DNA of 64,000 nt, from contig WTFX01000026.1 in NCBI GenBank assembly GCA_011523825.1, forward strand, positions 206,321-270,320, in the 5' to 3' direction. The notes beneath the pieces are model-generated. The model worked only from the letters and a program-made list of their open reading frames with translations, was not told the DNA's origin and did not search any database. Position 1 is the stretch's first letter; the number at the start of each line of letters is the position of its first letter. The stretch is from Microthrixaceae bacterium (GTDB lineage: Bacteria; Actinomycetota; Acidimicrobiia; Acidimicrobiales; Poriferisodalaceae). Shown here one piece after another: positions 56-32,345 of the stretch. The position numbers and the translations under genes were made by a program.

Positions 56-77
56 GTCGAACCCGGCGGCACGCTGA
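1..77 (+). CDS. C-terminal tail of the upstream gene, probably nuoB of operon 1 (partial)
   Basis: The window opens inside a reading frame that ends with TGA at 75-77, overlapping the ATG of nuoC by one base (TGATG). The visible tail holds two copies of TAAHGVPQS followed by NPAAR. Nothing of the catalytic part is visible. In complex I operons the gene before nuoC is nuoB, so NuoB is inferred from context only. The tail is low-complexity and looks like a C-terminal extension made by a 30-base tandem duplication, not a conserved part of the fold. Confidence 0.55.
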   Translation, partial: TAAHGVPQSGTAAHGVPQSNPAAR

Positions 78-8531: not shown

Positions 8532-9184
8532 TGGTCGAAGTGGTGGTGTTTGCGGTCGCCGGTGCCGCATGCCTCGTCGGTGCGGTGGGCGTGGTGCTGT
8601 CGCGTAATCCGGTGCATGCGGCGCTCATGCTGGTGATGACGCTGTTCGGCATCGCGGTGCTGTTCGTCGCGTTGCAGGCCCACTTCATCGCCGCCGTACA
8701 GGTCATCGTGTACGCCGGCGCCATCGTGGTGCTGTTCCTGTTCGTCATCATGCTGCTGGGCGTGGATCGGGCCGCCGAGCTGTCGATGGGCGCCTTGCCA
8801 GCGCAACGGTGGACCGCGGCTGCATTCGGCCTCGGCGGTGCCGCTGTGCTGGTCTGGCTGGTCGCCGCAGTCGACCGGATCTTCAAGGGGACTCGTTCGT
8901 ACGAGCTTGAGAGGGCTGGCATCGTCGGAGCCGAAGCTGACGCCGCCGCCACGGGCTATCTCGCCGACGTGAACGCTCTCGCCCGGTCGCTGTTCTCCGA
9001 CTACGTGTATGCCTTCGAGCTGACGTCGCTGTTGCTCATCGTGGCGGTCATCGGCACGGTGATCCTGGCTCGGCGCAGCTACGGCGCCGATGGACGGCGC
9101 GCCAGCCAGCACGGCGCCGATGGACGGCGCGCCAGCCGGCACGGCGCCGAGAACGCTCCGGAGCCGCAGGAGACACGCCAGTGA
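8531..9184 (+). CDS. nuoJ: NADH-quinone oxidoreductase subunit J (operon 1)
   Basis: Small membrane subunit (217 residues) of the proton-pumping arm. Five hydrophobic segments are visible, with the conserved NPVHAALMLV and VQVIVYAGAIVVLFLFVIMLLG in helix III (the pi-bulge helix). The ATG at 8531 overlaps the nuoI stop; the longer upstream frame is nuoI antiphase. The C-terminus is unusual: after the last helix there are two copies of GADGRRASxH followed by GAENAPEPQETRQ, produced by a 30-base tandem repeat. Confidence 0.94.
   Translation: MVEVVVFAVAGAACLVGAVGVVLSRNPVHAALMLVMTLFGIAVLFVALQAHFIAAVQVIVYAGAIVVLFLFVIMLLGVDRAAELSMGALPAQRWTAAAFGLGGAAVLVWLVAAVDRIFKGTRSYELERAGIVGAEADAAATGYLADVNALARSLFSDYVYAFELTSLLLIVAVIGTVILARRSYGADGRRASQHGADGRRASRHGAENAPEPQETRQ
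9081..9151 (+). repeat. 30-base tandem repeat at the nuoJ 3' end, 2.3 copies
   Basis: Units start at 9081, 9111 and 9141 with the shared string ACGGCGCCGA; the first two units differ at one base. The period of exactly 30 bases keeps the nuoJ frame and adds two 10-residue blocks (GADGRRASQH, GADGRRASRH). The unit is GC-rich and partly self-complementary (GGCGC...GCGCC). Confidence 0.9.
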
Positions 9185-9495
9185 GCGGCCTCGAGGTGAC
9201 CACTGGCTGGTACCTGACGCTGGGAGCGATGCTGTTCCTCATCGGCGGCACGGGCTTGCTGGTGCGGCGCAACCCGCTGATCATGCTCATGTGCGTCGAG
9301 CTGATGCTCAATGGCGTCAATCTCAGCTTCATCGCCTTCGCCGACCGCTTCGGCGATGTGCACGGGCACACGGTGGTGCTGTTTGTGCTGGTCGTTGCGG
9401 CGGCCGAGGTGGTGGTGGGTCTCGGATTAGTGGTGGCGGTGCTGCGCGCCTCGCCCCGGGCGACAGCGGACGATCTGTCGGCCCTGAAGGGCTGA
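9181..9495 (+). CDS. nuoK: NADH-quinone oxidoreductase subunit K (operon 1)
   Basis: Three-helix membrane subunit of 104 residues. The conserved glutamate-bearing helix reads MCVELMLNGVNLSFIAF (residues ~37-53), and the third helix holds VLVVAAAEVVVGL with the second key glutamate. The GTG start overlaps the nuoJ stop (GTGA). It lies between nuoJ and nuoL as in standard operons. Confidence 0.95.
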   Translation: MSGLEVTTGWYLTLGAMLFLIGGTGLLVRRNPLIMLMCVELMLNGVNLSFIAFADRFGDVHGHTVVLFVLVVAAAEVVVGLGLVVAVLRASPRATADDLSALKG

Positions 9496-9513
9496 GGCCG
9501 GGGGACTGAGTCG

Positions 9514-11415: not shown

Positions 11416-11417
11416 CC

Positions 11418-13010
11418 ATGGGCTCCCTGCTTGCCGCTTCTGGCTCCGCCAGCGATTTCCCGCTGCTGAACGCGCTGATCTTCGTGCCCGCGGTGGGCGC
11501 GCTGCTGGTAGCGCTGCTGCCGCGCAGCCGCCCGGATCTGGCCCGCCCGCTCGGCACGCTGTTCGCGGCCATCGGCGGGGCGCTCGCGCTGGCACTGGCG
11601 TGGCAATTCGATGCTGCCGACGCCGGCTTTCAGTTCGTCAGCCAGCAGTCTTGGATACCCGCGCTCGGCATCTCATGGCACGTCGGCGTCGACGGCATCT
11701 CCCTGTGGCTGGTGGTGCTGACCAGCGTGGTCGTGCCGATCGTGCTGGCCGGCGTCGACCCGCACCATGACCCCAAGCCCTACACGGCATGGATGCTGCT
11801 GCTGCAAGCGGGCTCGGTGGGCGCGTTCGTCGCGCTCGACCTGTTCCTGTTCTTCGTGATGTTCGAAGTGGTGCTGGTGCCCATGTACCTGCTGATCGCG
11901 GGTTGGGGCTACGAGGGCCGCCGCTACGCCGCCACGAAGTTCTTCATCTACACCATGGCCGGCTCGGCGCTGCTGCTCGTGGCGATCGTGGCCACCGCCG
12001 TGCTCGGCTCGCCCGACAGCGGCATCACGTTCGACCTTCAGACGCTCGCCGAAGGGCAGCTGCTGGGCGAGAACACAGCGCGGCTCTGCTTTGCGGCATT
12101 CGCGATCGCGTTCCTGGTGAAGGTGCCCGTGGTGCCGCTGCATACGTGGCTGCCCGATGCGCACACCGAAGCGCCCACCGCGGGCTCAGTGGTGCTGGCT
12201 GCCGTGCTGCTGAAGCTGGGCACCTACGGCCTGTTGCGCTTCGGCCTGTACCTGTTCCCCGAAGCGTCCGACTGGGCCGCGCCCGTGCTGGTGACGGTCG
12301 GCGTGGTGGGCGTCATCTGGGGCGCAATCACCGCGGCCATGCAGCGCGACCTCAAACGCCTCGTGGCGTACTCCTCGGTCGCCCACATGGGCTTCATCGT
12401 GCTGGGCATCTTCGCGTTCACCGCCCAGGCAGTGGGCGGCGGGGTGATCCAGATGGTCAACCACGGCATCAGCACCGGCGCCTTGTTCCTGTTGGTGGGG
12501 ATGCTGTACGAGCGGCGTCACACCCGCCAGATCGACGAGCTCGCCGGCATCCAGTCGGCGGCGCCGGTCTATGCCGGGGTGTTCACGCTGATCATGCTGT
12601 CGTCGGTGGGCGTGCCGGGCCTGAACGGCTTCGTGGGCGAGTTCCTGATCCTGATCGGCTCATTCGAGACGCGGCCGGTGTGGACGATCATCGCTGCCAC
12701 CGGCGTGATCCTGGCGGCGTTGTACCTGCTGTGGGCCTACCAGCGTGTGTTCCACGGCCCGCCGGCCGCGGCCGATCGACAGACGGCCGACTTGCGCCGG
12801 GGCGAGCTGCTGACCCTGGCGCCGTTCGTCATTGCCGCGGTGGCGCTCGGCGTGTATCCCAAGCCGCTGCTCAACGCAGTGGAGCCGGCTGCCGACAAGC
12901 TGCTGGAGCACTTCGAGGAGTACAGCGGGTTCGAGGTGCCAGAACCAGGCGACCCTGTCGTCGTGAACCACGGCGATGACGCCGGCGAGCACGACGAGGA
13001 CGGCCACTGA
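11418..13010 (+). CDS. nuoM: NADH-quinone oxidoreductase subunit M (operon 1, antiporter-like)
   Basis: Second antiporter-like pump subunit, 530 residues, ~14 helices. Typical motifs: FFVMFEVVLVPMYLLIAGWG (pumping glutamate), KVPVVPLHTWLPDAHTEAPT, KLGTYGLLRFGL, KRLVAYSSVAHMGFI and LPGL/PGLNGFVGEFL. The tail is acidic and His-rich (GDDAGEHDEDGH). It starts 2 bases after the nuoL stop and overlaps nuoN by one base. Confidence 0.95.
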   Translation: MGSLLAASGSASDFPLLNALIFVPAVGALLVALLPRSRPDLARPLGTLFAAIGGALALALAWQFDAADAGFQFVSQQSWIPALGISWHVGVDGISLWLVVLTSVVVPIVLAGVDPHHDPKPYTAWMLLLQAGSVGAFVALDLFLFFVMFEVVLVPMYLLIAGWGYEGRRYAATKFFIYTMAGSALLLVAIVATAVLGSPDSGITFDLQTLAEGQLLGENTARLCFAAFAIAFLVKVPVVPLHTWLPDAHTEAPTAGSVVLAAVLLKLGTYGLLRFGLYLFPEASDWAAPVLVTVGVVGVIWGAITAAMQRDLKRLVAYSSVAHMGFIVLGIFAFTAQAVGGGVIQMVNHGISTGALFLLVGMLYERRHTRQIDELAGIQSAAPVYAGVFTLIMLSSVGVPGLNGFVGEFLILIGSFETRPVWTIIAATGVILAALYLLWAYQRVFHGPPAAADRQTADLRRGELLTLAPFVIAAVALGVYPKPLLNAVEPAADKLLEHFEEYSGFEVPEPGDPVVVNHGDDAGEHDEDGH

Positions 13011-14587
13011 TGGCTCAGATCCAAGACGTGTTCGTCTCCCCGACTGTCGATTGGTGGGTCCTCGTCCCGCAGATCATCCTGGTCGGCGCTGCGCTCGGGC
13101 TGTTGCTGGTGGCCTCGCTGGCACCGCGGGCGTTGCCGAGCTGGGTGGCCACCATCACCACCATCGCCACGGGTGCTGCAGCAGCCATCGTGGCCGCTGT
13201 CCAGTGGGGCATGTGGGGATCGACGCCCCGTCCCACGCTGAACGGGGCCTTTGTGAGCGACGGCTTCAGCCTGCTGCTGACGGTGCTGATCGGCGCTGGC
13301 GTGGCCATGACGGCGCTGGTCGCGCATTCGGCCCTCGACCGCTATGACATGGCGCCGCCGGAGTTCGCCGCGCTGCTGCTCGCGTCTGCTGCGGGTGCGG
13401 TCGTCATGGCTGGTGCGAACGACCTCATCGTGCTGTTCCTCGGCCTCGAATCGCTGTCGATCGCCCTGTACGTGCTGATCGCGCTGGCGGGCCGGCGGGC
13501 GTCCGCGCGTGAGTCGGCCATGAAGTACTTCGTGCTGGGAGCGTTCAGCTCGGCGTTCTTCCTCTACGGCGTCGCGCTCGTCTATGGCTCCACGGGCGGC
13601 ACGAACCTCAGCGGGATCGGCGCCTTTCTCTTCGGAACCGTCAGGGAAACCGATTACCTGCTGCTTGCCGGCATCGCCCTGCTGCTCGTCGGCCTGGGAT
13701 TCAAGGTGGCCGCCGTCCCGTTCCACTTCTGGGCACCCGATGTGTACGAGGGTGCGCCCAGCCCGGTCACCGGCTACCTGGCGTCGATTGCCAAGGCTGC
13801 CGGCTTCGCCGCGCTGGCACGCGTGCTGTACGTGGCGGTGTTCCAGCAGAGCACTGCGTGGAAGCCGATCGTGGTCGCGCTGGCGTTCGCCACACTCGCT
13901 GTCGGCGCGGTCATGGCTATCTGCCAGAACGACGTGAAGCGGATGCTGGCCTACAGCTCGATCAGCCACGCAGGCTTCGTGCTGGTCGGCCTCTCCGCGG
14001 TTCCGGCGGCCAGCGGACTGGTGCAGTGGACCGAAGGCGGCGGCGACGCTGTGTCGTCGTCGGTCTTCTACCTGATCGTCTACTCGTTCATGGCGCTAGG
14101 CAGTTTCGCAGTGCTGTCGGTGATCGGTGCCGAGCTTCGTTCGCCGGAACCCGATGCGAGCGCGCACGCCCTCAGCCGCTACGGCGGGCTTGCACGCCGA
14201 CGGCCAGTCCTGGCGCTCGCCTTCACTGTGCTGCTGCTGGCGCAGGCTGGTGTGCCGCTCACGGCCGGCTTTGTGGCGAAGTTCGAGGTCATCCGGGCGG
14301 CCATCGGTGCCAGCGGTTACGTCCTCGCCGCAGTCGCCATGGTCACAGCGGTGGTGAGCGCCTTCGCCTACCTGAGGGTGGTGCTGGCCATGTACGCGCC
14401 GGAGGGTTCGACCGACGATGACGACGACATCCCGTCGGCGCGAGCAGGCCGGCCGCGCTGGGGCGGCTTGCCCCTCACATCGGTGTTCGCGATCAGCCTC
14501 GCCGTCGCCGTGACGGTCGTTGTCGGTGTTCTCCCGCAGACGCTGCTCGAATGGAGCCGGGACGCCGTCCTGTCGATCATCCTGTAG
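13010..14587 (+). CDS. nuoN: NADH-quinone oxidoreductase subunit N (operon 1, antiporter-like)
   Basis: Third antiporter-like subunit, 525 residues, last gene of operon 1. Signatures: FLGLESLSIALYVLIAL, GFKVAAVPFHFWAPDVYEGAPSP, KRMLAYSSISHAGFVL and AGVPLTAGFVAKFEV. The stop at 14,585-14,587 is followed by a 49-base spacer before an unrelated membrane protein, so the complex I operon ends here. No strong terminator is visible; GGACC/GGTCC can pair across the spacer. Confidence 0.95.
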   Translation: MAQIQDVFVSPTVDWWVLVPQIILVGAALGLLLVASLAPRALPSWVATITTIATGAAAAIVAAVQWGMWGSTPRPTLNGAFVSDGFSLLLTVLIGAGVAMTALVAHSALDRYDMAPPEFAALLLASAAGAVVMAGANDLIVLFLGLESLSIALYVLIALAGRRASARESAMKYFVLGAFSSAFFLYGVALVYGSTGGTNLSGIGAFLFGTVRETDYLLLAGIALLLVGLGFKVAAVPFHFWAPDVYEGAPSPVTGYLASIAKAAGFAALARVLYVAVFQQSTAWKPIVVALAFATLAVGAVMAICQNDVKRMLAYSSISHAGFVLVGLSAVPAASGLVQWTEGGGDAVSSSVFYLIVYSFMALGSFAVLSVIGAELRSPEPDASAHALSRYGGLARRRPVLALAFTVLLLAQAGVPLTAGFVAKFEVIRAAIGASGYVLAAVAMVTAVVSAFAYLRVVLAMYAPEGSTDDDDDIPSARAGRPRWGGLPLTSVFAISLAVAVTVVVGVLPQTLLEWSRDAVLSIIL

Positions 14588-20706: not shown

Positions 20707-20928
20707 ATGGACACCTCTTCGTTGATCGTCACCCGCGCCGACGTACGGAGCGGGAAGCCGTGCTTCGTCGGCACGCGTATCACGGTGTACGACGTCCTCG
20801 AGTATCTGGCGTCCGGCATGTCCAATCAGGAGATTGTGGACGACTTCCCTGAGCTCACCGAGCAGCACATTCGAGCGGCGCTTGAGTTCGCCGCGATGCG
20901 CGAGCGCCGCCTCGTCGCGCCTGTGTGA
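20707..20928 (+). CDS. DUF433-type antitoxin
   Basis: A 73-residue protein of the DUF433 family, small winged-helix-like proteins that act as antitoxins to PIN-like toxins. The family core is clear: ITVYDVLEYLASGMSNQEIVDDFPELTEQHIRAALEFAA, preceded by SGKPCFVGTRI. It overlaps the downstream toxin-like gene by 4 bases (GTGA), the usual order of antitoxin first. Confidence 0.85.
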   Translation: MDTSSLIVTRADVRSGKPCFVGTRITVYDVLEYLASGMSNQEIVDDFPELTEQHIRAALEFAAMRERRLVAPV

Positions 20929-21263
20929 AGCTCCTCTTCGACCAGAACCTGTCGCGCCGCTTGGTTGGCTTGCTCGACCGAGAGTTTCCCGGCAGCCGTC
21001 ACGTCGTCGACTACGGCTTGGGGACGGCCACTGATCGCGAGATCTGGGACCACGCAGCGGCCCATGGCTATGTCATTGTCTCGAAGGATTCAGACTTCCG
21101 CCAGCTTGCCTTCCTGTACGGACCGCCGCCGAAAGCAATCTGGGTCCGCGTCGGCAACGTGTCGACCCGCGTCGTCCTTGATCTGTTGCTGCAGCATCGC
21201 GAACTCATCGAGGAATTCGAGGGCGACACCGAAGGTGCCTTGCTCGTACTGCCACTCGACTGA
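20925..21263 (+). CDS. DUF5615 PIN-like toxin
   Basis: A 112-residue protein with the DUF5615/PIN-like fold. It begins KLLFDQNLSRRLVGLL (first acidic residue of the site) and has VIVSKDSDFRQLAFLYG, with the SKDxDF motif contributing the next acidic residues. Members are thought to be RNases neutralised by DUF433 partners. The GTG start overlaps the antitoxin stop. The pair lies just before the second complex I operon and could act in genome stabilisation; that role is inference. Confidence 0.82.
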   Translation: MKLLFDQNLSRRLVGLLDREFPGSRHVVDYGLGTATDREIWDHAAAHGYVIVSKDSDFRQLAFLYGPPPKAIWVRVGNVSTRVVLDLLLQHRELIEEFEGDTEGALLVLPLD

Positions 21264-21380: not shown

Positions 21381-21386
21381 TAGCGT
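21381..21386 (+). promoter_or_regulatory. Probable -10 box (TAGCGT) of the second nuo operon
   Basis: TAGCGT ends 8 bases before the nuoA GTG at 21,395. The identical hexamer is used upstream of rplJ (57,585) and rpoB (58,932). The -35 side is weak. The rest of the gap from 21,264 shows no gene. Confidence 0.5.
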
Positions 21387-21394
21387 TGCGGTCC

Positions 21395-21760
21395 GTGTCC
21401 GACCTCTTGCGGAGCTATCTGACCGTCGCAATCTTCGGCGCAGCGGCAGTCTTGATGGCCTTCACAATGTTCGGAGTCGCACGGATCCTGCGGCCGCAGC
21501 GACCGACGCCCCAGAAGCTCATCGCCTACGAGAGCGGCGTCGATCCGGTCGGCAGCGACTGGACCCAGAGTCAGATCCGTTACTACGTCTTCGCGGTGCT
21601 GTTCGTCCTGTTCGACGTGGAGGCCGTGTTCATCTTTCCTTGGGCGACGCGGCTCGAGGTCTATGCCCTGTTCGGCCTGGTCGAGATGGCGATCTTCATC
21701 TTCATCCTGGTGTTGGGCCTGTTCTACGCATGGCGCAAGGGCGTCCTGCGCTGGGTGTGA
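21395..21760 (+). CDS. nuoA: NADH-quinone oxidoreductase subunit A (operon 2)
   Basis: Three-helix membrane subunit of 121 residues from the GTG at 21,395 (a TTG at 21,386 would add three residues but lies inside the -10 box spacing). Family signatures: KLIAYESGVDPVG (residues ~43-55) and RYYVFAVLFVLFDVEAVFIFPWA (~65-87, with the conserved acidic DVE). It opens an 11-gene operon that lacks nuoE, nuoF and nuoG. Confidence 0.93.
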   Translation: MSDLLRSYLTVAIFGAAAVLMAFTMFGVARILRPQRPTPQKLIAYESGVDPVGSDWTQSQIRYYVFAVLFVLFDVEAVFIFPWATRLEVYALFGLVEMAIFIFILVLGLFYAWRKGVLRWV

Positions 21761-21780
21761 GGGGCTGAGGGAATTCCGCT

Positions 21781-22329
21781 ATGGCACTGGTCGACAAGGT
21801 CAAACTGCCTAAGCCGCTGAGCTGGCTGTTGAACTTCGGCCGGGCACGCTCGCTGTGGGTGTACCAGTGGGGCTTGGCCTGCTGTGCCATCGAGATGGGC
21901 GCCGCATTCGGTTCGCCGCGTTACGACGTGATGCGCCTCGGCGTCATCCCGTTCCCGGCCAGCCCGCGCCAAGCCGACTTGGTGGTGATCTCCGGCACCG
22001 TCACCGACAAGATGGCACCGGTCATCCGCCGGCTGTACGAGCAGATGCCCGAACCCAAGTACGTCATCTCGATGGGCTCGTGCGCCAACTGCGGCGGTCC
22101 GTATTGGGACAGCTACTCGGTGACCAAGGGCGTCGACCAGGTCATCCCGGTCGATGTGTACGTGCCCGGCTGTCCGCCGCGGCCCGAGGCACTGCTGGAA
22201 GGCATCGTGTTGTTGCAGGAGCGCATCCAGCGTGAGGACATGCAAGAACGCTGGCGAGGCGAGCCGATAGTGGTGCCGCCCTCGGCACCATCATCAACAC
22301 GTGTTCCAGCAGGATCGGCGCGGGCGTAG
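21781..22329 (+). CDS. nuoB: NADH-quinone oxidoreductase subunit B (operon 2, cluster N2)
   Basis: Fe-S subunit (182 residues) holding cluster N2, the last electron carrier before the quinone. Ligands: tandem cysteines in [11 protein letters not shown] (residues ~35-36), a Cys in MGSCANCGG and one in [12 protein letters not shown]. Preceded by a GAGGG ribosome-binding stretch. The C-terminal ~20 residues are a Pro/Ser-rich tail. It is the only complete nuoB in the window. Confidence 0.95.
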
Positions 22330-22331
22330 CC

Positions 22332-23063
22332 ATGGCTGACGACACCGGCGACGAGCAGCCTGGCGACGAGGCGCGCGAAGCGCTCGCCGCGGAGCTGTCC
22401 GAGCTGCTCGGCGATGCGGTGGTGGAGTCTCATGTGGAAGCCGGCCAGAACCTCTGGCTGCGCGTCGACATCGAGCTGTGGCGTGCCGTGATGGCAGCGC
22501 TGCGCGATGCAGGCTTCGCGTACTTCGGGTTCCTGTCGGCCATCGACTGGACCGATGCGCCCGAAGGCCGATACGAAGACACCGAATTCGATGCCGCTGG
22601 TGTCGGAGAGGAAGACGACGAGGCTTCCAGCGCCACGGCCGAAGAAACGGTGCGGCGAGGCGGCGGCGAAACCCGCTTCCAACTGCTTGCGCAGCTGCAC
22701 TCGCCGGCCCGCCAAGCCGCCGTGCTCATCAAGGCCGATGTACCCGAGGCCGCCAGCAGCGATGGGTCCAGTGCTCCCGCATCGGTGCCATCGATCATCG
22801 ACGTCTTCACCGGGGCCGACTGGCACGAGCGAGAAGCCCACGAGATGTTCGGCCTCGTCTTCGACGGCCATCCGAACCTGGCGCCCATCTACCTGCCCAC
22901 CGAGTTCGAAGGCCACCCGCTGCGCAAGGATTTCCCCCTGCTGGCACGTGCGGTCAAGCCATGGCCCGGCGTGGTTGACATCGAAGAGATTCCGCCTGAG
23001 CTCGAGGCCCAGCTCGAGGCCGAGGTGATGGCCGAGTTCGAGGCATCTGGAGCGGGCGCATGA
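22332..23063 (+). CDS. nuoC: NADH-quinone oxidoreductase subunit C (operon 2)
   Basis: 30-kDa-type subunit, 243 residues. Signatures: [12 protein letters not shown] (residues ~64-75) and the C-terminal [27 protein letters not shown]...[11 protein letters not shown]. Between the two halves is an acidic, low-complexity insertion (residues ~80-115; [13 protein letters not shown]), and a second Ser-rich loop, explaining the length compared with operon 1's NuoC. The end ASGAGA lies in a short sequence repeated downstream. Confidence 0.94.
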
Positions 23064-23137
23064 CCTCCGGCCTCGTGGTACCGGCATCGTCTGATGGTGC
23101 TCGCAGGCTCGCATCTGGAGCGGGCGCATGAGCTCCG
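23043..23137 (+). repeat. Direct repeat across the nuoC2-nuoD2 junction
   Basis: Bases 23,043-23,069 recur at 23,111-23,137 (offset 68) with one mismatch. Each copy holds the end of nuoC2 (coding ASGAGA), the ATGA overlap, and a nuoD-like start. This mirrors the larger duplication at the nuoC1-nuoD1 junction (565-737), although the actual sequences differ. Confidence 0.85.
23060..23131 (+). CDS. 23-codon chimeric ORF between nuoC2 and nuoD2
   Basis: It begins at the ATG overlapping the nuoC2 stop and ends ...[13 protein letters not shown] with a TGA overlapping the nuoD2 ATG. Its last residues match the NuoC2 end, and its last 42 bases resemble the last 42 bases of nuoI2 (25,914-25,955). It keeps a continuous ATGA chain between nuoC2 and nuoD2, so it may support translational coupling. 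A peptide function is not indicated. Confidence 0.5.
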
Positions 23138-24312
23138 CCACTGCAGCGACTGACCTGCGCTCACAGCAGGCCTACGTGGCAGCGCAGGCCGCGGACGCCC
23201 GCGTCAATGTCGAGCTGGACACCGGCGACATGACGCTGAACATCGGCCCGCAGCACCCCGCCACCCACGGCACGCTGCGCATCGCCTGCCAGCTTGACGG
23301 CGAGCAGGTCATCTCGGCCGAGCCGCTGATGGGCTACATGCACCGCGGCTACGAGAAGCTCTGCGAGGTCCGCACCTACCCCCAGTGCACCACGCTGATC
23401 AACCGCATCGACTGGCTGGGCAGCTTCGCCAACGAAGTGCCGTTCATCCTGGCGGCCGAGCAGCTGATGGGCGTGGAAGCCCCGCCCCGTGCGCAGTGGA
23501 TCCGCACCATCCTGTTCGAGCTGAGCCGCATCGCGAACGTGTCGCTGTTCCTCGGCGACATGGGCGTGCAGGTCGGCGCGCTCACCCCGGTGTTCTTCGC
23601 CTTCCGTGACCGCGAACGGGTGCTCAACCAGATCGAAGAGGTCACCGGCGGCCGCTTCCACCCCAACTTCGATCGCATCGGCGGCCTCAAAGACGACATT
23701 CCCCGCGGCTGGATCGCCGAGACCCATGCTGTTATGGCCAAGATGCGCGGCTTCTGTGACGAGATGGAAGACCTGCTCATGGGCAATGAGATCTTCCAGA
23801 CTCGCTGCCGCAGCGTGGGCGTGATCCCAGGGGACGTGGCGCTGAGCTACGGCCTGTCGGGCGCCAACCTCCGCGCCAGCGGGGTCGACTGGGACCTGCG
23901 CCGCGACGCCAACCCGGGCCTCGCCTGGGACCAGGTGGACTGGCGGGTCTGGACCCATCCCGACGGCGACTCGTTCGCCCGCTACTGGGTTCGCCTGCAG
24001 GAGACCCGCGAGGCCACCAAAATCGTCGACCAGCTGCTCGACGGCATCCCCTCGGGCCCGATCATGGCCAAGGTGCCGCGCATCATCAAGGTGCCCGCCG
24101 GTGAGGCCTACGTCTCCACTGAGAACCCGTTGGGCGAGATGGGCTACTACGTGGTGTCCAAGGGCGGGCTCGGCCCGTTCCGGGTGAAGATCCGCACGCC
24201 CAGCTTCAGCAACATCTCGGTCGTGCCGTGGGTGATGCGGGGCACATACGTGCCCGACATCATCACCATTCTCGGCTCGCTGTATTTCATCCTCGGGGAC
24301 ATCGACCGATGA
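23128..24312 (+). CDS. nuoD: NADH-quinone oxidoreductase subunit D (operon 2)
   Basis: 49-kDa-type subunit, 394 residues. Landmarks: NIGPQHPATHGTLRIACQL (residues ~38-56), GYMHRGYEKLCEVRTYPQ, PPRAQWIRTILFELSRI, and the end TPSFSNISVVPWVMRG...GDIDR. It differs clearly from operon 1's NuoD and carries the HRG motif. In human NDUFS2 the arginine of this motif is, as I recall, the residue dimethylated by NDUFAF7, and a homologue of that enzyme ends this operon. The ATG overlaps the preceding short ORF's stop. Confidence 0.95.
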   Translation: MSSATAATDLRSQQAYVAAQAADARVNVELDTGDMTLNIGPQHPATHGTLRIACQLDGEQVISAEPLMGYMHRGYEKLCEVRTYPQCTTLINRIDWLGSFANEVPFILAAEQLMGVEAPPRAQWIRTILFELSRIANVSLFLGDMGVQVGALTPVFFAFRDRERVLNQIEEVTGGRFHPNFDRIGGLKDDIPRGWIAETHAVMAKMRGFCDEMEDLLMGNEIFQTRCRSVGVIPGDVALSYGLSGANLRASGVDWDLRRDANPGLAWDQVDWRVWTHPDGDSFARYWVRLQETREATKIVDQLLDGIPSGPIMAKVPRIIKVPAGEAYVSTENPLGEMGYYVVSKGGLGPFRVKIRTPSFSNISVVPWVMRGTYVPDIITILGSLYFILGDIDR

Positions 24313-25337
24313 CGGACCTGCTGGGGCTGGCGTACTGGGCCGAGACCAGCATCAAGCTGGGCGTCGCGCTCATCGTCATCCCCACAGCCGCGCTCATGCT
24401 GGGCTACCTGTTCCTGCTCAAGATGATGGCCTTCATGCAGAGCCGGCTCGGCCCCCAAGACGTCGGCCCCTACGGCACGCTGCAGCTCATCGCCGACGCG
24501 GTGAAGTTCCTGCAGAAGGAAGACATCCACCCCGCCGCCGCCGACCGGCGCGTGTTCCGGGCAGCGCCCGTGGTGGTGCTGGCCTCGTCGTTCCTGCTCT
24601 TCGTGGTGCTGCCTACCGGCCCCGACGCCGTGGTGGAGAACCTGGACACCGGCATCTTCTACGCGATGGCGGTTTCGTCGCTGTCGGTGCTCGGCGTGCT
24701 GATGGCGGGCTGGGCGTCGGCGAACAAGTACGCGCTGCTCGGCGGCCTGCGAGCGGCGGGTCAGCTCATCGCATACGAGCTGCCGCTGATTCTCGCCGTC
24801 ATGGGCGTGGTCATCCAGGCCGACTCGCTCAACCTGCAGGAGATCGTGCGAGCCCAGGCAGAGGGCGAGATCTTCGGCTTCGGCCTCATCGGCAATCCGT
24901 TCATCCTGACGCAGTTCATCGGATTCCTGATCTTCATGATCTCCGCCCAGGCTGAGCTGACCCAGACACCGTTCGATATGCCTGTGGCCGAGACCGAGCT
25001 CGTGGGCGGTTTCCACGTGGAGTACACGGGCTTCCGCTTCCTGCTGTTCTTCATGGCCGAAGTGGCCACGGCATTCGCCTTCTCGGCGCTTGCCACCGTG
25101 ATGTTCCTGGGCGGCTGGTGGATTCCGGGCTTCGACTTCAACGCTCCGGCACTCAACGTGCTCGGACCGGTCGTGATGCTCGTGAAGATCCTGGTGGTGG
25201 CCTTCATCATCTTCTGGATCCGCTTCACCTACCCCCGCCTGCGCGAGGACCAGCTCCAGAAGTTCGCCTGGAAGGTCCTCATCCCGCTGTCGCTCGCGAA
25301 CATTGTCGTGACCGGAATCTTCAAGGTGGTGCTCTAG
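24309..25337 (+). CDS. nuoH: NADH-quinone oxidoreductase subunit H (operon 2)
   Basis: Quinone-chamber membrane subunit, 342 residues. Signatures: MQSRLGPQDVGPYGTLQLIA (residues ~46-65), DAVKFLQKEDIHP, FDMPVAETELVGGFHVEYTG (acidic coupling loop), and YPRLREDQLQKFAWKVLIPL. The ATG at 24,309 overlaps the nuoD2 stop; the upstream open frame is nuoD2 antiphase. It lacks the hydrophilic tail seen in operon 1's NuoH. nuoH directly follows nuoD because nuoEFG are absent. Confidence 0.95.
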   Translation: MTDLLGLAYWAETSIKLGVALIVIPTAALMLGYLFLLKMMAFMQSRLGPQDVGPYGTLQLIADAVKFLQKEDIHPAAADRRVFRAAPVVVLASSFLLFVVLPTGPDAVVENLDTGIFYAMAVSSLSVLGVLMAGWASANKYALLGGLRAAGQLIAYELPLILAVMGVVIQADSLNLQEIVRAQAEGEIFGFGLIGNPFILTQFIGFLIFMISAQAELTQTPFDMPVAETELVGGFHVEYTGFRFLLFFMAEVATAFAFSALATVMFLGGWWIPGFDFNAPALNVLGPVVMLVKILVVAFIIFWIRFTYPRLREDQLQKFAWKVLIPLSLANIVVTGIFKVVL

Positions 25338-25955
25338 ATGCCACAGCTTCCCGGACTGCTGAAAGGCCTCGGCGTGACGGCGCGCACCGCAATGCGCACG
25401 CTGTTTCCCAAGCGGGGCATGCGCACGCTCATCCCTGCCCCGCAGCAAGGCTCGGTCACCGTGCAGTACCCGCACGAGAAGGAAGCCCCGCCCGACCGCG
25501 CACGCGGCGTGATCGCCCTGCACGAGGAAAACTGCACCGCCTGCATGCTGTGCTCTCGCTCCTGCCCCGACTGGTGCATCTACATCGAGGGCCACAAGGT
25601 GAAGGCCCCGCCCCGTCGGGCCGGCGGTGCCGTCCGCACCGTCAACGTGGTCGACCGGTTCGACATCGACTACGCGCTGTGCATGTACTGCGGCATCTGC
25701 GTGGAGGTGTGCCCGTTCGACGCGCTGTTCTGGACGCCTGAGTACGAGTACTCCGAGCCGCATATCGCCGACTTGCTGCACGACCGGATCCGCCTCAGCG
25801 AGTGGATGGAGACCGTGCCCGAGTTCTTGGACTACGAGCCCGGCTCGGAGCAGAAGGTGCGCAAGGTTCCCGAGTTCGGCACTGATGACTTCGCGCCCGC
25901 GCGGAAGCTCGAGTCCGATGGCGCTCGCGGCCTCGCGTCTGGAGCGGGGAGCTAG
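25338..25955 (+). CDS. nuoI: NADH-quinone oxidoreductase subunit I (operon 2, two [4Fe-4S])
   Basis: Ferredoxin-like subunit, 205 residues, abutting nuoH2. Cluster motifs: CTACMLCSRSCPDWC (residues ~59-73) and CMYCGICVEVCPFDALFW (~115-132). The C-terminal ~60 residues are a charged tail ending SDGARGLASGAGS, which is encoded by a sequence very similar to the end of the short ORF before nuoD2. In complexes without NuoEFG, NuoI is the likely docking surface for another electron donor such as ferredoxin; that is inference here. Confidence 0.94.
   Translation: MPQLPGLLKGLGVTARTAMRTLFPKRGMRTLIPAPQQGSVTVQYPHEKEAPPDRARGVIALHEENCTACMLCSRSCPDWCIYIEGHKVKAPPRRAGGAVRTVNVVDRFDIDYALCMYCGICVEVCPFDALFWTPEYEYSEPHIADLLHDRIRLSEWMETVPEFLDYEPGSEQKVRKVPEFGTDDFAPARKLESDGARGLASGAGS
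25914..25955 (+). repeat. Dispersed 42-base gene-tail repeat, copy at the nuoI2 end
   Basis: The copy aligns without gaps to 23,090-23,131: 30 of the first 35 bases match, and three of the five differences are silent. Both copies encode SDGAR-x-LASGAG and end at a stop codon. A shorter third copy (GCATCTGGAGCGGGCGC) ends nuoC2 at 23,043. Confidence 0.8.
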
Positions 25956-25963
25956 GACGCCCG

Positions 25964-26458
25964 ATGGTTGCGCAGAACATCGCCTTCGGCATCATCGCGG
26001 GAATCACCGTGCTGGCTGCCATCGGCATGGTGACGACGCGCAACATCGTGCACGCAGCGCTGTTCCTGGTGGCCGTGCTGGGCGGCCTCGCGGCGAACTA
26101 CGTGTTGCTCACCGCCGAGTTCATTGCCACCACGCAGGTGCTCGTCTACATCGGTGCCGTGATGGTGCTGTTTCTGTTCGGCATCATGCTCACCCGGGCA
26201 CCGATCGGGCGAATACCTCAGATGACCGGGGCCACCTGGCCGGTTGCCGCACTGTCGGCACTGGCCCTGGGCGCCGTCACCGTCTATGCCCTCATCGATC
26301 GCTTCGGCACCGATTCGCTGGCCACCGACAGCACAGTCTTCCGCACGGCCGACGTGTCCGACTCGGTCTTCTCCCAATACATCATCCCGTTCGAAGCGAT
26401 ATCAGTGCTGCTACTAGCCGCACTGATCGGCGCCGTTGTACTGGCGCGGCGGGACTGA
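25964..26458 (+). CDS. nuoJ: NADH-quinone oxidoreductase subunit J (operon 2)
   Basis: Five-helix membrane subunit, 164 residues, close to the usual length. Conserved segments: NIVHAALFLVAVLGGLAANYVLL (residues ~27-49) and QVLVYIGAVMVLFLFGIML (~58-76). A short periplasmic stretch (VFRTADVSDSVFSQYI) precedes the last helix. It has no repeat tail, unlike NuoJ of operon 1. Confidence 0.94.
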   Translation: MVAQNIAFGIIAGITVLAAIGMVTTRNIVHAALFLVAVLGGLAANYVLLTAEFIATTQVLVYIGAVMVLFLFGIMLTRAPIGRIPQMTGATWPVAALSALALGAVTVYALIDRFGTDSLATDSTVFRTADVSDSVFSQYIIPFEAISVLLLAALIGAVVLARRD

Positions 26459-26459
26459 G

Positions 26460-26537
26460 ATGAACGAAACAGTGATTCGGGCCACGGCAGTGGGTACGAC
26501 GGCGATGGACGCCAAGAAGGTCGGCTCATGCTGCTGA
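26460..26537 (+). CDS. 25-residue ORF between nuoJ2 and nuoK2
   Basis: The ATG lies one base after the nuoJ2 stop and the TGA falls inside nuoK2 (10-base overlap). It fills a 69-base gap that is unusually long for this operon. Content is polar and not recognisable. It has the same length (25 residues) as the ORF before nuoM2. It may be only a spacer that keeps translation continuous. Confidence 0.35.
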
Positions 26538-26827
26538 ACCAGTTCCTGCTGCTTGGTGCGCTGCTGTTCGCCGTGGGCGTCTACGGCGTGCTGGCGCGCC
26601 GCAACGCGGTCATGGTGCTGATGTCGATCGAGCTGATGCTGAACGCCGTCAATCTCAACTTCGTGGCGTTCGGATTGCAGCACGACGTGGTGTCGGGGCA
26701 GGTTTTTGCCCTGTTCATCATTGCGGTCGCAGCGGCCGAGGTCGGCGTGGGCCTGGCCATCGTGCTGCTGCTGTACCGCAACCGCAAGTCGATCGCGGTC
26801 GACGAGTTCGACCTGATGAAGGGCTGA
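26528..26827 (+). CDS. nuoK: NADH-quinone oxidoreductase subunit K (operon 2)
   Basis: Three-helix membrane subunit, 99 residues. Glutamate helices: [17 protein letters not shown] (residues ~35-51) and [24 protein letters not shown] (~66-89). The start ATG lies within the preceding short ORF, preceded by AAGAAGGTCGG as a plausible ribosome-binding region. Confidence 0.95.
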
Positions 26828-26837
26828 GCGCACGCGC

Positions 26838-29024
26838 ATGGATTGGTTTCTTGAGAACGCGTTTCTCATCCCGCTGATCCCGGCGGTCTCCTTCGTCGTC
26901 ATCCTGCTGTTCGGCCGCAGCGTCATCGGCGTCGAGCGGGTCCAGAAGGTGGGCATCACCGCGGTCGGCATCGTGTGGATTTTCTCGATGATCGCCGCGG
27001 CGTCGTGGATCACCCGGGTGGAAGACAGCACTTCGTCAACCGACGGCAAAGCCGAGCACGCCCAGATCGCGGTCAACGAGGGGCTGAGCGCTTCAGGTTC
27101 AAGCACTGTCGACGGCGAGCTGTACCTCGCCGCCGAAGACGACGGTCACGCCGACGACGGGTATGGCTATGCCACCACCGAGCCGGTCATCTCCGAGGTC
27201 GACGGCTGGTGGTCGAGCAGTGGTGTCGACTTTGCCGTGGGCACTCTGGTGGACGGCCAGACGGTGCTGCTGCTGATCGTGGTGACGTCGATCTCGTTGC
27301 TGGTGCACATTTATTCCAGCGAGTACGTGAAGGGCGACCGGCGATTCGTCCACTACTACGCATTCCTGAGCCTGTTCACCGCCTCGATGCTCTTCTTCGT
27401 CATGGCCCAGAACCTGGTCCAGATGATCGTGGGCTGGGAGCTGGTGGGCGTGTGCAGCTTCGTGCTCATCGGGCATTGGTGGGAGGAACGACCGAATACC
27501 GACGCGGCTGTGAAGGCCTTCCTGACCAACCGCGTCGGCGACATCGGCCTGCTGGTCGGTGTCGCCATCCTGTTCGGGACGTTCAAGACCTTCGACATCG
27601 ACGCCATCAACCGGATGGCGGGCGAGATGGGCAGCGAGATCCACTTCGCCCTGCTGATGGCGTCGATCGCCCTCATGGCGGCGGTGTGCTCCAAGTCGGG
27701 CCAGTTCCCGCTGCACACCTGGCTGCCCGATGCCATGGCCGGCCCCACGCCGGTCTCTGCGCTGATCCACGCCGCGACCATGGTCGTCGCGGGTGTGTTC
27801 ATGATCGGCCGGCTGTACCCGGTTTTCTTCGAGGGCTTCTCCATCGGCACCTCGTCGATCAACCTGATGGCGTTCATCGGCGGCTTCACGGCGCTGATCG
27901 GTGCCGGGCTGGCCTTCGCCCAGTGGGACATCAAGAAGGTGCTGGCGTACAGCACCGTGAGCCAGCTCGGCTACATGGTGATGGCACTGGGTGTGGGTGC
28001 TTGGACTGCCGCCATGTTCCACCTGTTCACGCACGCCTTCTTCAAGGCCTGCCTGTTCCTGGGGGCCGGCTCGGTCAGCCATGCGGCGCACCACACCTTC
28101 GACATGCGGGAGATGGGCGGCCTGCGCAAGTACATGCCGCACACCTACAAGACCTTTGTGATCTCGACGCTGGCGCTGGCGGGCGTGTTTCCCTTTGCTG
28201 GTTTCTGGTCGAAAGACGAGATCCTGCTCGGGGCGTTCGCGGGACAGCAGAGCGCCTACCCGCTCATGCTGATCTTCGGCTGCGTGGTGGCGCTGCTGAC
28301 CGCCGCCTACATGACCCGGGTCATCTGGTACACGTTCTGGGGCGAGTACCGGGGCCACGGCCACCCCCACGAGTCACCCAAGGTGATGACCGTGCCGCTG
28401 TGGATCCTGGCGGTCATGGCAGTGGGGGCGGGTGCATTCAACCTGCCGACACCGGTATTGGAGATCTTCGGTCTCGAAGGCCTCGCGCATCTCGTGCAGA
28501 CCTACGCCGAGCCCACCCACTACCTGAATGCGGTCGGGCTGTCGCATCCCGACCCGTCGCTGTGGCTGGCGCTCGTGGGCCTCGCGCTGGCGCTGACCGG
28601 CATCGCCATCACGTTCATGTACTTCTGGCGCAACGCCGGGCCGCACGGGCTGACCGAGCGCAACCGGTACGCCAAGGCGGGGTACACGTTCCTCGAGCAG
28701 AAGTACTACCTCGACCACCTCTACACCGACATCGTGGTGGGCTCGATCAAGTCGCCGATTGCCCGGGCCGCCAACTGGGTCAACAACAACGTGATCGACA
28801 AGGTGGTCAACACGGCCGGCGAGGGGGCTCGCGACAGCGGCCGCTGGGTGTACCGCTGGATCGACCAGGGCACTATCGACAACACCGTCAACGCGCTCGG
28901 CAGCGGTGCCGATGCCGGCGGTCAGGGTCTGCGGGTGATGCAGACCGGCAGGGTCCAGAACTACGGCTCGCTGCTGTTCGGCACAGCGGCCGTGGTCGCC
29001 ATCGTGTTCGTGATCGTGTTGTGA
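26838..29024 (+). CDS. nuoL: NADH-quinone oxidoreductase subunit L (operon 2), with extra loop
   Basis: Antiporter-like pump subunit, 728 residues, ~95 longer than operon 1's NuoL. Core motifs: GWELVGVCSFVLIGHWWEERP, KSGQFPLHTWLPDAMAGPTPVSALIHAAT, KKVLAYSTVSQLGYM and GFWSKDEIL. After the second helix there is a soluble insertion (residues ~55-130) rich in Ser, Asp, Glu and Gly (AAEDDGHADDGYGY), predicted to lie on the periplasmic side. The C-terminus is also extended, with repeated INN/VVN-type helical stretches after the lateral helix. Confidence 0.94.
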   Translation: MDWFLENAFLIPLIPAVSFVVILLFGRSVIGVERVQKVGITAVGIVWIFSMIAAASWITRVEDSTSSTDGKAEHAQIAVNEGLSASGSSTVDGELYLAAEDDGHADDGYGYATTEPVISEVDGWWSSSGVDFAVGTLVDGQTVLLLIVVTSISLLVHIYSSEYVKGDRRFVHYYAFLSLFTASMLFFVMAQNLVQMIVGWELVGVCSFVLIGHWWEERPNTDAAVKAFLTNRVGDIGLLVGVAILFGTFKTFDIDAINRMAGEMGSEIHFALLMASIALMAAVCSKSGQFPLHTWLPDAMAGPTPVSALIHAATMVVAGVFMIGRLYPVFFEGFSIGTSSINLMAFIGGFTALIGAGLAFAQWDIKKVLAYSTVSQLGYMVMALGVGAWTAAMFHLFTHAFFKACLFLGAGSVSHAAHHTFDMREMGGLRKYMPHTYKTFVISTLALAGVFPFAGFWSKDEILLGAFAGQQSAYPLMLIFGCVVALLTAAYMTRVIWYTFWGEYRGHGHPHESPKVMTVPLWILAVMAVGAGAFNLPTPVLEIFGLEGLAHLVQTYAEPTHYLNAVGLSHPDPSLWLALVGLALALTGIAITFMYFWRNAGPHGLTERNRYAKAGYTFLEQKYYLDHLYTDIVVGSIKSPIARAANWVNNNVIDKVVNTAGEGARDSGRWVYRWIDQGTIDNTVNALGSGADAGGQGLRVMQTGRVQNYGSLLFGTAAVVAIVFVIVL

Positions 29025-29032
29025 GCAGTGCA

Positions 29033-29110
29033 ATGAATCAGGCAAGGACGACGCAGGCCATGAACCCGTCTTCACTGAAATCGGGCCGTAACCAAGAGGG
29101 AGCTTCCTAG
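29033..29110 (+). CDS. 25-residue ORF between nuoL2 and nuoM2
   Basis: The ATG is 8 bases after the nuoL2 stop and the TAG overlaps the nuoM2 GTG by one base (TAGTG). It spans the whole 85-base gap. It is polar (many Ser, Asn, Gln, Arg), not recognisable, and the same length as the ORF before nuoK2, with no clear sequence similarity to it. Confidence 0.35.
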   Translation: MNQARTTQAMNPSSLKSGRNQEGAS

Positions 29111-30672
29111 TGGACGCAACTGGATTCGACGCTTGGGCGCTGACGCTCGCGGTGTTCCTGCCGGCCGTCGGCGCGCTCGTGATGATGGCAGTGCCCCGTG
29201 CGCGCGAGCTTGAGCTGAAGACCATCGCACTCGGGGCCTCGCTGGCGTCGCTGGCGGTCGGCGTGTACCTGCTGTTCACCTTCGACTACGGCAACGCGGG
29301 GTCGCTGCAGTTCGTGGTGGAAAAGGGCTGGATCAACGCCATCGACGCCGACTACATCATGGGACTCGACGGCCTGTCGTTGCCGCTGCTGATCCTGTCG
29401 ATGGTGATCATCCCGCTGTGCGTGATCTACTCCTGGGAGCACATCCCCGAGCCTGGCAACGCAAAGGCTTTCCTGATCCTGATGCTGATCCTGGCATCGG
29501 GCATGAACGGCACGTTCGTGGCGCAGGACCTCATCTTGTTCTTTGTCTTCTTCGAGGTCGTGCTGCTGCCGATGTATTTCATGATCGGCGTGTGGGGCGG
29601 CGAGAACCGTCGCTACGCCTCGCTGAAGTTCTTCCTGTTCACGCTGTTCGGCTCGGCGCTGATGATCGTCAGCTTCGTGGCGCTGTACTTCGTTGCCACC
29701 GGTGCGAACGGGCTGGACCTGCGCAGTTTCGACATGCGTGTGCTGGCTGACGCCGCCGGCGGCGACTTGGCCCGGGGCACCCAGGCGATCATCTTCGCCG
29801 GCCTGTTCATGGGCTTCGGCATCAAGGTGCCGATGTTCCCGTTCCACACCTGGCTGCCCGACGCGCACACCGAGGCACCCACCGTGGGCTCGGTGATCTT
29901 GGCGGCGATCTTGCTGAAGCTCGGCACGTACGGATTCGTGCGGATCGCACTGCCCTTCCTGCCTGAAGGCGCCGCGGCGTGGGCACCGTGGATCGGCCTG
30001 CTGGCGGTGATCGGCATCATCTACGGCGCCTTGGGCTGCCTGGCGCAGACCGACATGAAACGGCTCATCGCCTTCAGCTCGGTGGCCCACATGGGCTTCG
30101 TCATGCTGGGCATCGCCACGCTGACCCCGATCGGCATCAACGCCGCGGTGTTCGGCATGGTGGCCCACGGGATCATCACCGGGATGCTCTTCTTCCTGGC
30201 CGGTTCGGTGAAAGAGCGGTACCACACGCTGGAGATCAGCCGGCTGGGCGGCCTGCTGAAGTCGGCGCCTCGCATGGGCTGGATCCTGGCCATCTCGGCG
30301 ATGGCGTCACTGGGCCTGCCCGGCTTGGCCGGATTCTGGGGCGAATTCCCGGTGATCCTGTCGGCCTACAACCCGGCCGCGGGCCTGTCAGAGGGGACCT
30401 TCCGCACCTACATGGTGATCGCCGCTGTGGGCACGGTGTTTGCCGCCGGCTACCTGCTGTGGTTGTTCCAGCGCAGTGCGTTCGGCGAGCCCAAGCCCGA
30501 GTGGGAAGGGCACGTGATTGCGGACGTGAATCGTTTCGAGTGGGCGGCGTGGGCGCCGCTCATCATCGCGATGGTGCTCTTCGGTTGGGTCCCCGGGCTG
30601 ATCTTCGGCGTGGTCGATGACGTGTCGACCGGCATCGCCGAGAGCATCAGCGCAGCGGTGGGCGGGAGCTGA
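29110..30672 (+). CDS. nuoM: NADH-quinone oxidoreductase subunit M (operon 2)
   Basis: Antiporter-like pump subunit, 520 residues. Motifs: FFVFFEVVLLPMYFMIGVWG, KVPMFPFHTWLPDAHTEAPT, KLGTYGFVRIALPF, KRLIAFSSVAHMGFVML and LPGLAGFWGEFPV. It uses a GTG start overlapping the preceding short ORF's TAG; GAGGGAGC just upstream is a plausible ribosome-binding site. Confidence 0.95.
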   Translation: MDATGFDAWALTLAVFLPAVGALVMMAVPRARELELKTIALGASLASLAVGVYLLFTFDYGNAGSLQFVVEKGWINAIDADYIMGLDGLSLPLLILSMVIIPLCVIYSWEHIPEPGNAKAFLILMLILASGMNGTFVAQDLILFFVFFEVVLLPMYFMIGVWGGENRRYASLKFFLFTLFGSALMIVSFVALYFVATGANGLDLRSFDMRVLADAAGGDLARGTQAIIFAGLFMGFGIKVPMFPFHTWLPDAHTEAPTVGSVILAAILLKLGTYGFVRIALPFLPEGAAAWAPWIGLLAVIGIIYGALGCLAQTDMKRLIAFSSVAHMGFVMLGIATLTPIGINAAVFGMVAHGIITGMLFFLAGSVKERYHTLEISRLGGLLKSAPRMGWILAISAMASLGLPGLAGFWGEFPVILSAYNPAAGLSEGTFRTYMVIAAVGTVFAAGYLLWLFQRSAFGEPKPEWEGHVIADVNRFEWAAWAPLIIAMVLFGWVPGLIFGVVDDVSTGIAESISAAVGGS

Positions 30673-30674
30673 GG

Positions 30675-32345
30675 ATGAACCTCGGGGCACTTCTCGCGTT
30701 TGTGCGGCCGGATCTCGACTGGCACGCGCTTGCGCCCGAATTGACCCTGCTGGCGGTGGGCACGCTGGTGACCGTCGCCGACATCGCGCTCGATGACAAG
30801 GCCAAGCGGATGATGCCGACACTGGCCGGCATCGGTCTGCTGATCACACTGGTGCCGATCCTGACGTTGGCCGCCGACGGTGCCGAGCGGTCGATGTTCG
30901 GCGGGGCGTACGTCGTCGACGATTTCTCGCTGGTGCTCAAGGCGCTGTTCATCCTGGCCGGCTACGTGGTTGTGCTGATGTCGGTCGACTACGTGCGCGA
31001 GGGCGATTACTACGAGAATGAGTACTACACGCTGCTGCTGACATCGCTGCTGGGCATGGTGATGATGGCCAGCTCGCGCGACCTGGTGAGCGTGTTCGTG
31101 GCGCTGGAGCTGCTGTCGATTCCCGCCTACATGCTGGCGGCCTGGCGCAAGGGCGGGCCCCGTTCCAACGAGGCCGGCCTGAAGTACTACCTGATGGGGG
31201 TGTTCGCCACAGCGGTGATGCTGTACGGCATGTCGCTGGTATTCGGTGTGGCCGGCGACACCGACTTCGGCACGATTGCCGCGGCGCTGAAGGGCGAGGG
31301 CGCGAGCCCGATCGTGATCGTGGCGATCCTGTTCGTGCTGATCGGGTTCGCATTCAAGGTGTCGGCGGTGCCGTTCCACACGTGGGCGCCCGACACCTAC
31401 GAGGGTGCCCCCACGCCGGTGACGGCGTTCCTGTCGGTGGCGTCAAAGGCAGCGGGATTTGTGGCGCTGCTGGCCTTGGTGTTCGTGGCCTTCGAAGGAG
31501 CCGCCGACATCGTGCAGCCGTTCTTCTGGGTGCTGGCCGCGGTGACGATGACCGTGGGCAATCTCATCGCGCTGCGCCAGACGAACATCGTGCGGATGCT
31601 GGCCTACTCGGGCGTGGCGCAGGGCGGCTTCATGCTGGTGCCCTTCGCCGTGGCGTTCGAGGGCGATGCCTGGCGGGTGCCGGGCACCGACATCACGACG
31701 ACCCTGCTGCCCGGCGCATACGAGGCGATCATCGTCTACGCCATCATCTACGCCTTCATGAACCTGGGAGCGTTCAGCGTGGTGCTGGCGGTGTCGCGGC
31801 GAACCCGCTCAGGCGAGATCTCGAGCTACGGCGGGCTGTTCAACTATGCGCCGGGCATGGCAGTGCTGATGACGCTGTTCCTGGCGGCGCTGGCCGGCAT
31901 ACCGCCGGCGGGCGGCTGGTTCGCCAAGTTCGTGATCTTCCGAGCGCTGGCCGATGCGAGCACGCCGGCTGGCTGGGTGCTCGCCGTGATCGTGGCGGTG
32001 AACGCGGTGATCGCGTTCGGCTACTACGCCCGGGTGCTGGTGCAGATGTGGTTCCAGCCGGTGCCCGAGACCGTGGCGCTGGGGGTCGATTCCGGAGGCG
32101 ACGACGAGATCGATCTCGTTGAAGCAGCCGATGCCTCCACCGAGCAGGACGAGCACGGCGATGCGTGGTTGGCCACCGAGGCCCGTCAGGCCACGATGGT
32201 GCGCTTCACTCCTGGGCCGATCCCGATGACGGGGGCATTGGCGGCGGCTCTGGCGATCACGGCCATCGCCACGCTGGCGTTCGGCGTCTTTCCGGGTTTG
32301 GTGAGCCACTTCGGCGACGTCGCATCGTTCCACTTCGGCGGCTGA
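30675..32345 (+). CDS. nuoN: NADH-quinone oxidoreductase subunit N (operon 2)
   Basis: Antiporter-like pump subunit, 556 residues, last nuo gene of operon 2. Motifs: FVALELLSIPAYMLAAWRKG, FKVSAVPFHTWAPDTYEGAPTPVTAFLSV, IVRMLAYSGVAQGGFML and AGIPPAGGWFAKFVIF. A hydrophilic insertion (~residues 470-510; DSGGDDEIDLVEAADASTEQDEHGD) lies before the last helix. It is followed 48 bases later by the MidA-like methyltransferase gene. Confidence 0.95.
   Translation: MNLGALLAFVRPDLDWHALAPELTLLAVGTLVTVADIALDDKAKRMMPTLAGIGLLITLVPILTLAADGAERSMFGGAYVVDDFSLVLKALFILAGYVVVLMSVDYVREGDYYENEYYTLLLTSLLGMVMMASSRDLVSVFVALELLSIPAYMLAAWRKGGPRSNEAGLKYYLMGVFATAVMLYGMSLVFGVAGDTDFGTIAAALKGEGASPIVIVAILFVLIGFAFKVSAVPFHTWAPDTYEGAPTPVTAFLSVASKAAGFVALLALVFVAFEGAADIVQPFFWVLAAVTMTVGNLIALRQTNIVRMLAYSGVAQGGFMLVPFAVAFEGDAWRVPGTDITTTLLPGAYEAIIVYAIIYAFMNLGAFSVVLAVSRRTRSGEISSYGGLFNYAPGMAVLMTLFLAALAGIPPAGGWFAKFVIFRALADASTPAGWVLAVIVAVNAVIAFGYYARVLVQMWFQPVPETVALGVDSGGDDEIDLVEAADASTEQDEHGDAWLATEARQATMVRFTPGPIPMTGALAAALAITAIATLAFGVFPGLVSHFGDVASFHFGG

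Follow-up and report, generated by a model that had tools for sequence, protein, structure and literature searches.

The short open reading frames (ORFs) that fill the long gaps of a nuo operon in this bacterium, a member of a poorly known group of Acidimicrobiia, are probably relay mini-cistrons, translation bridges that preserve termination-reinitiation between successive genes, and we put the probability of this reading at about 60%. In the proposed scheme neighbouring genes have moved 44-157 nt apart, and the space between them is taken up by a short ORF that opens on the upstream stop or directly behind it and closes on the downstream start or slightly beyond. A ribosome terminating on the upstream gene would reinitiate on this bridge, terminate where the following gene starts and initiate once more, so that the long gap is crossed in steps of only a few bases. 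In E. coli and H. volcanii coupling is reported to have all but vanished once the distance reaches about 20 nt (PMC10666635); as it fades within this distance in that account, it should not survive a gap of 60-150 nt. With a bridge in place the coupling of complex I subunits would outlast the insertion, and the mRNA would be kept covered by ribosomes. Translation, reinitiation and selection as the cause of the pattern are presumed, from the architecture of the junctions, their alleles in relatives and the origin of several bridges.

The window, by which we mean the whole 64,000-nucleotide stretch analysed, holds two nuo operons about 7 kb apart (77-14587, nuo-1, and 21386-32345, nuo-2). The second lies on the forward strand in the order nuoA-B-C-D-H-I-J-K-L-M-N; its gene names are NCBIfam matches, with NuoL2 lying outside that set and used as a search query. 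As this operon has no nuoE, nuoF or nuoG, complex 2 may draw its electrons from a different donor or share the module. Its three gaps of at least 30 nt, namely nuoC2-nuoD2 (C-D), nuoJ2-nuoK2 (J-K) and nuoL2-nuoM2 (L-M), are each spanned by an ORF, as the first-pass annotation had counted.

The J-K ORF (26460-26537, forward strand, 25 codons) opens with an ATG at 26460, one base after the nuoJ2 stop ends at 26458, and closes with a TGA at 26535-26537 inside nuoK2 (ATG at 26528), giving an overlap of 10 nt. The L-M ORF (29021-29110, forward strand) begins either with a GTG at 29021 (29 codons), which overlaps the nuoL2 stop, or with an ATG at 29033 (25 codons), eight bases past that stop (29024), and its TAG at 29108-29110 has one base in common with the GTG of nuoM2 at 29110 (TAGTG). 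The J-K frame is likewise open upstream to a TTG at 26436, from which it has 33 codons; for both ORFs the figure of 25 codons is a matter of the start codon chosen. Both are where the first-pass annotation placed them, no more than eight bases from the upstream stop and overlapping the next start. The C-D ORF (23060-23131, forward strand, 23 codons) has an ATGA overlap at both ends, its ATG at 23060 overlapping the nuoC2 stop and its TGA at 23129-23131 overlapping the nuoD2 start at 23128. Overall these bridges stay within the distance limits of termination-reinitiation (about -8 to +10 nt per step; PMC10666635): the hops are -4 and -4 at C-D, -4 or +8 and then -1 at L-M, and +1 and then -10, slightly outside the limits, at J-K.

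We compared the nuo-2 junctions in 10 genomes of the genus, the window and G002-G010. G001 was excluded from these counts because its contigs do not hold the region (only a short contig carries nuoN), and the operon of G007 is spread over two contigs, from the second of which its L-M gap was read. At J-K the gap is long in five genomes (69 nt in the window, 72 nt in G010, 79 nt in G005 and 99 nt in G003 and G008), where homologues of the ORF have 21-30 codons, and only 6-16 nt in G002, G004, G006, G007 and G009. At L-M it measures 85 nt in the window, 70 nt in five genomes, 44 nt in three and 157 nt in G005. Conservation in relatives, which the first-pass annotation had put forward as the check, is thus complete for the L-M ORF, with an in-frame counterpart in 10/10 genomes, and partial for the J-K ORF, which is absent in 5/10, those with the 6-16-nt gap. 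The equal length of the two ORFs, which it had suspected of being accidental, is indeed chance: in relatives the L-M ORF has 12, 20, 25 or 49 codons and the J-K ORF 21, 22, 25 or 30. No frameshifted version was found among the 10 genomes. At C-D a 64-nt insert is present in 4/10 genomes, and five have a direct ATGA/GTGA (-4) overlap. Because other genera of the family have short gaps (J-K, 1-4 nt in 17 genomes; L-M, 10-13 nt in 18 genomes), the long gaps are a trait of this genus. The sister genomes probably come from sponges, to judge from the isolate names.

Such alleles are not confined to nuo-2. In the nuo-1 operon, inserts of 58-123 nt occur at nuoD-E, nuoE-F, nuoG-H and nuoI-J, where other genomes have a -4 or -1 overlap, and a ribosomal operon carries a 61-nt insert in 7/11 genomes plus a 58-nt class at another junction. 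The C-D, J-K and L-M alleles are scattered across the species tree of G002-G010, a distribution that suggests interspecies recombination or repeated loss. The assembly of G005 is broken at the nuoD1-E1 insert, and both contigs concerned (C47 and C79) end in it.

A lone spanning ORF is unremarkable in this GC-rich DNA, given how close its genome-wide frequency comes to that of shuffled sequence. In 864 kb of the source genome a simple gene caller found 234 gaps of 30-160 nt between same-strand genes; an equally tight spanning ORF lies in 23 of them (6 of these in nuo and ribosomal operons), versus ~19 expected from dinucleotide shuffles. This comparison of gaps with shuffles over 864 kb gave no signal of genome-wide selection for bridges. 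The openness of L-M is also weak evidence when taken alone and given the shared 3' end, the shuffle probability being 0.22-0.72 per allele. The signal above chance is the cross-species pattern, not the J-K or the L-M ORF singly.

With a first definition of a bridge (start between -4 and +20 of the gap, stop between -15 and +12 of the next start), which was drawn up only after the nuo-2 sequences had been inspected, 22 of the 23 nuo-2 gaps of at least 30 nt in the 10 genomes are bridged. The 23rd, nuoH-nuoI of G008, consists of two identical 63-nt units, each a 20-codon ORF whose TAG adjoins an ATG, and is thus chained. A strict test admitted chains of ORFs with each hop between -4 and +8 nt, took as its null the shuffled gap with length phase randomised, and was applied to distinct long-gap alleles at junctions that have a short (<=2 nt) allele elsewhere in the genus. 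By this test 7/7 nuo-1 alleles are bridged (expected 1.5, P = 2.7e-6), together with 3/4 in nuo-2 (expected 0.7, P = 0.0025), the single miss being a start mis-call, and 1/1 in the ribosomal operon, as against 0/20 for atp gaps, which are never coupled (expected 1.0). When all long-gap alleles are scored for strict chains, the counts are 7/12 for nuo-1, 8/12 for nuo-2, 5/13 for the ribosomal operon and 0/20 for atp; since some alleles are common to several species, the counts are not fully independent. Three of the four long J-K alleles fail the strict test because their ORFs start 11-16 nt past the stop, and that of the window is the only one to pass.

Inserts at -4 junctions measure 62, 65, 68 and 74 nt, and two out-of-phase totals, of 82 and 127 nt, resolve into chained in-phase ORFs. 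A simple phase count is less favourable to the bridge reading, with 10/15 alleles at 2 mod 3 (P = 0.0085); two of the others, at 1 mod 3, are two-ORF chains, and three, at 0 mod 3, are small (6, 15 and 18 nt). Contig C31 compared with G004 and G009 over 151 junctions shows 11 alleles with an insertion, of which 7 are 2 mod 3; the proportion falls to 2/6 without the five nuo-operon alleles. From this comparison and the strict test, the bridge effect is shown for the nuo operons, the ribosomal operon suggests it, and genome-wide it is not shown.

It is possible, though in our view unlikely, that chance and duplication account for the whole pattern: GC-rich DNA has few stops and duplicated coding ends are open, and the frame would then be unselected. 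The genome-wide agreement with shuffles is what this account predicts, and about 75-95% of shuffles leave an ATGA-to-ATGA gap open when its length is right. It sits poorly with the seven bridged nuo-1 alleles against 1.5 expected once length phase is randomised, with atp and always-long junctions that are almost never bridged, and with two-ORF chains that bring the phase back. The earlier proposal of selection for continuous translation is supported at the level of the operon, where alleles are in phase and the peptide drifts, while J-K and L-M alone yield modest statistics.

Another 53 nuo loci from outside the genus have gaps of at least 30 nt at 21/439 junctions, and 8 of these are chain-bridged, including D-H (2/2) and H-I (2/2); several of the unbridged long gaps resemble start mis-projections. 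Gap sizes at nuoK1-nuoL1 vary with the nuoL1 start that is chosen, and an apparent 46-nt gap at D-H in nuo-2 of G006 was set aside as a TTG start mis-call, the sequence having a 14-nt ATGA-to-ATGA repeat.

Several inserts start like the downstream gene and finish like the upstream gene, which is what copying of a junction gives, and these inserts are tandem duplications of the junction. Judged from the bases themselves, the clearest one in the window, absent from the first-pass annotation, is between nuoC1 and nuoD1 (start at 714), where a 110-nt junction duplication has left a 37-codon ORF (604-717, forward strand) that opens like NuoD1 (MSTATATA) and closes like NuoC1 (GAIPVQFKAVEGR). The unit is identical at 38/39 bases on its 3' side and 32/40 on its 5' side, and G004 and G009 have a -4 overlap at this junction. 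Similar copies are present at nuoH-nuoI of G008 (33/33 and 22/30 bases) and at nuoG1-H1 (up to 25/26 and 16/16 bases), and the final 17 nt ahead of the ATGA in the C-D ORF of the window are a copy of the nuoC2 end (17/17, 3' side). No junction-duplication copies were seen at J-K and L-M, which have only the bridge architecture in common with the others.

Many bridges would then have arisen by tandem duplication of the end of gene A, the stop/start and the beginning of gene B, giving an ORF with the start of B and the stop of A. For -4 or -1 overlaps the duplicated unit would be in phase when its length is 2 mod 3. An in-phase unit makes the ORF arise automatically; a unit of any other length uncouples the genes or lengthens the downstream protein, and out-of-phase duplications that break coupling would be purged by selection. 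Extension may have happened in G005, where a 64-nt C-D unit is read in frame into the NuoD N-terminus. A wider claim, that tandem duplication of coupled junctions repeatedly makes relay mini-cistrons in the complex I operons of this lineage and that selection retains the in-phase ones, we hold more tentatively, at somewhat less than even odds. If it is true, junctions lengthen, even through chained ORFs, and are never uncoupled, and there is a general, element-free route from overlapping to separated genes with translation continuous throughout. A question that is hard to test is whether tight coupling in operons for protein complexes is selected or simply comes with a compact genome. Insertion alleles at coupled junctions offer a natural experiment on it: if only in-phase bridged ones survive, coupling matters. 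The genus offers matched bridged and unbridged alleles at the same junction.

What the bridges encode is free to change. Among 50 ORFs in eight sets, the minimum changes at codon positions 1/2/3 are 75/82/85, with no excess of synonymous (third-position) change found in these ORFs; the nuo genes show a strong excess of this kind, their third positions changing several times as often as the others. In-frame stops arose 0 times against 3.2 expected, and 63/2000 simulations of 49 of the 50 ORFs (the G007 L-M copy was omitted) had none; so small an expectation suits chance and duplication as well. The bridge ORFs behave like spacers that need to stay readable and not like proteins, and annotators should be wary of entering them as small proteins, which they probably are not. 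A role as conserved small proteins, such as small subunits of complex I, could be argued from the presence of the L-M ORF in 10/10 genomes and from shared C-terminal residues. We consider this scarcely credible: there is no codon-position bias, lengths range over 12-53 codons, J-K is missing in half of the genomes, and the conserved L-M end is the purine-rich sequence before nuoM2.

That sequence (GAGGGAG, within the L-M ORF) and its counterpart before nuoK2 (AAGAAGG, within the J-K ORF) lend something to another reading, that the gaps are ordinary leaders with the ribosome-binding sites of nuoK2 and nuoM2 and that the ORFs are incidental. A binding site takes about 20 nt, not 69-157 nt, and 6-16 nt suffices at J-K in relatives, which makes this reading rather improbable. 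The J-K and L-M gaps gave no Rfam, promoter-like or terminator-like match, and the gap RNA folds are not clearly better than shuffles.

A MIRU-like mobile repeat inserting at start/stop overlaps might be thought to explain inserts of 58-70 nt that are present or absent at ATGA sites, and the inserts at nuoD1-E1, nuoE1-F1 and, in G007, nuoD2-H2 are related. Modelled as one profile (R1), these have 19 strong matches (E <= 1e-6) across 11 genomes, all at those three nuo junctions and none elsewhere; weaker DNA matches to R1-type inserts lie mostly within genes. The search returned no second copy of the J-K ORF, and L-M is a full-length single copy in the genome, with just two 27-nt partial matches elsewhere, in G002 and G007. 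This absence of dispersed copies mostly refutes the mobile-repeat reading for the genus, and we regard that reading as very unlikely. A hairpin in the R1 family was dropped for want of compensatory changes. A plasmid origin for J-K was rejected too, the search giving no match.

By its description, the closest known case would be the MIRU of mycobacteria (mycobacterial interspersed repetitive units), for which a review cites Supply 1997 (PMC12548453). Like the bridges, it is a short insert at a start codon with an ORF coupled to the gene at -4 spacing, and because of that coupling such an insertion is described as costing little expression. The C-D and nuo-1 inserts likewise lie at a start/stop overlap with an ORF overlapping both neighbours, as do J-K and L-M approximately. 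MIRUs are dispersed and seemingly mobile, whereas the inserts here are local, mostly unrelated to one another and in several cases copy the host junction, and searches of the genome and the genus found no interspersed many-copy repeat of the MIRU type among them. Termination-reinitiation through ATGA, GTGA and TGATG overlaps is described between subunits of one complex (PMC10666635, PMC6728339); those cases link two genes directly, whereas in the present operons a further, peptide-neutral ORF would carry the ribosome over a gap. The Salmonella mgtQ, a small ORF between mgtC and mgtB, also promotes translation of the next gene (PMC8092293), but is described as doing so via stem-loops and specific acidic codons, whereas the bridges have no conserved codon or clear folds. 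In titles and abstracts of the largely open-access literature we found no description of junction duplication or bridging ORFs.

Two further features of the region deserve mention. A 32-nt stretch of the C-D ORF (23093-23124, forward strand) is common to the 3' end of nuoI2 (25917-25948, forward strand) in the same frame; a dispersed element was considered on the strength of this match and rejected, the genome having only these two sites. At nuoI2 the stretch encodes a C-terminal tail unit (SDGARGLASGAG) that recurs, again as a repeat, in the NuoI tails of both G003 and G005. Across the genus, NuoI and NuoB have variable low-complexity C-terminal tails (window 25917-25955) with the repeated units ESDGARELAS and PAAPGRS, and these repeats are missing in the three other-genus genomes shown. 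Upstream of nuoA2, at 20707-21263, lie two small overlapping genes of 73 and 112 amino acids, which we take to resemble a toxin-antitoxin pair of the DUF433/DUF5615 type.
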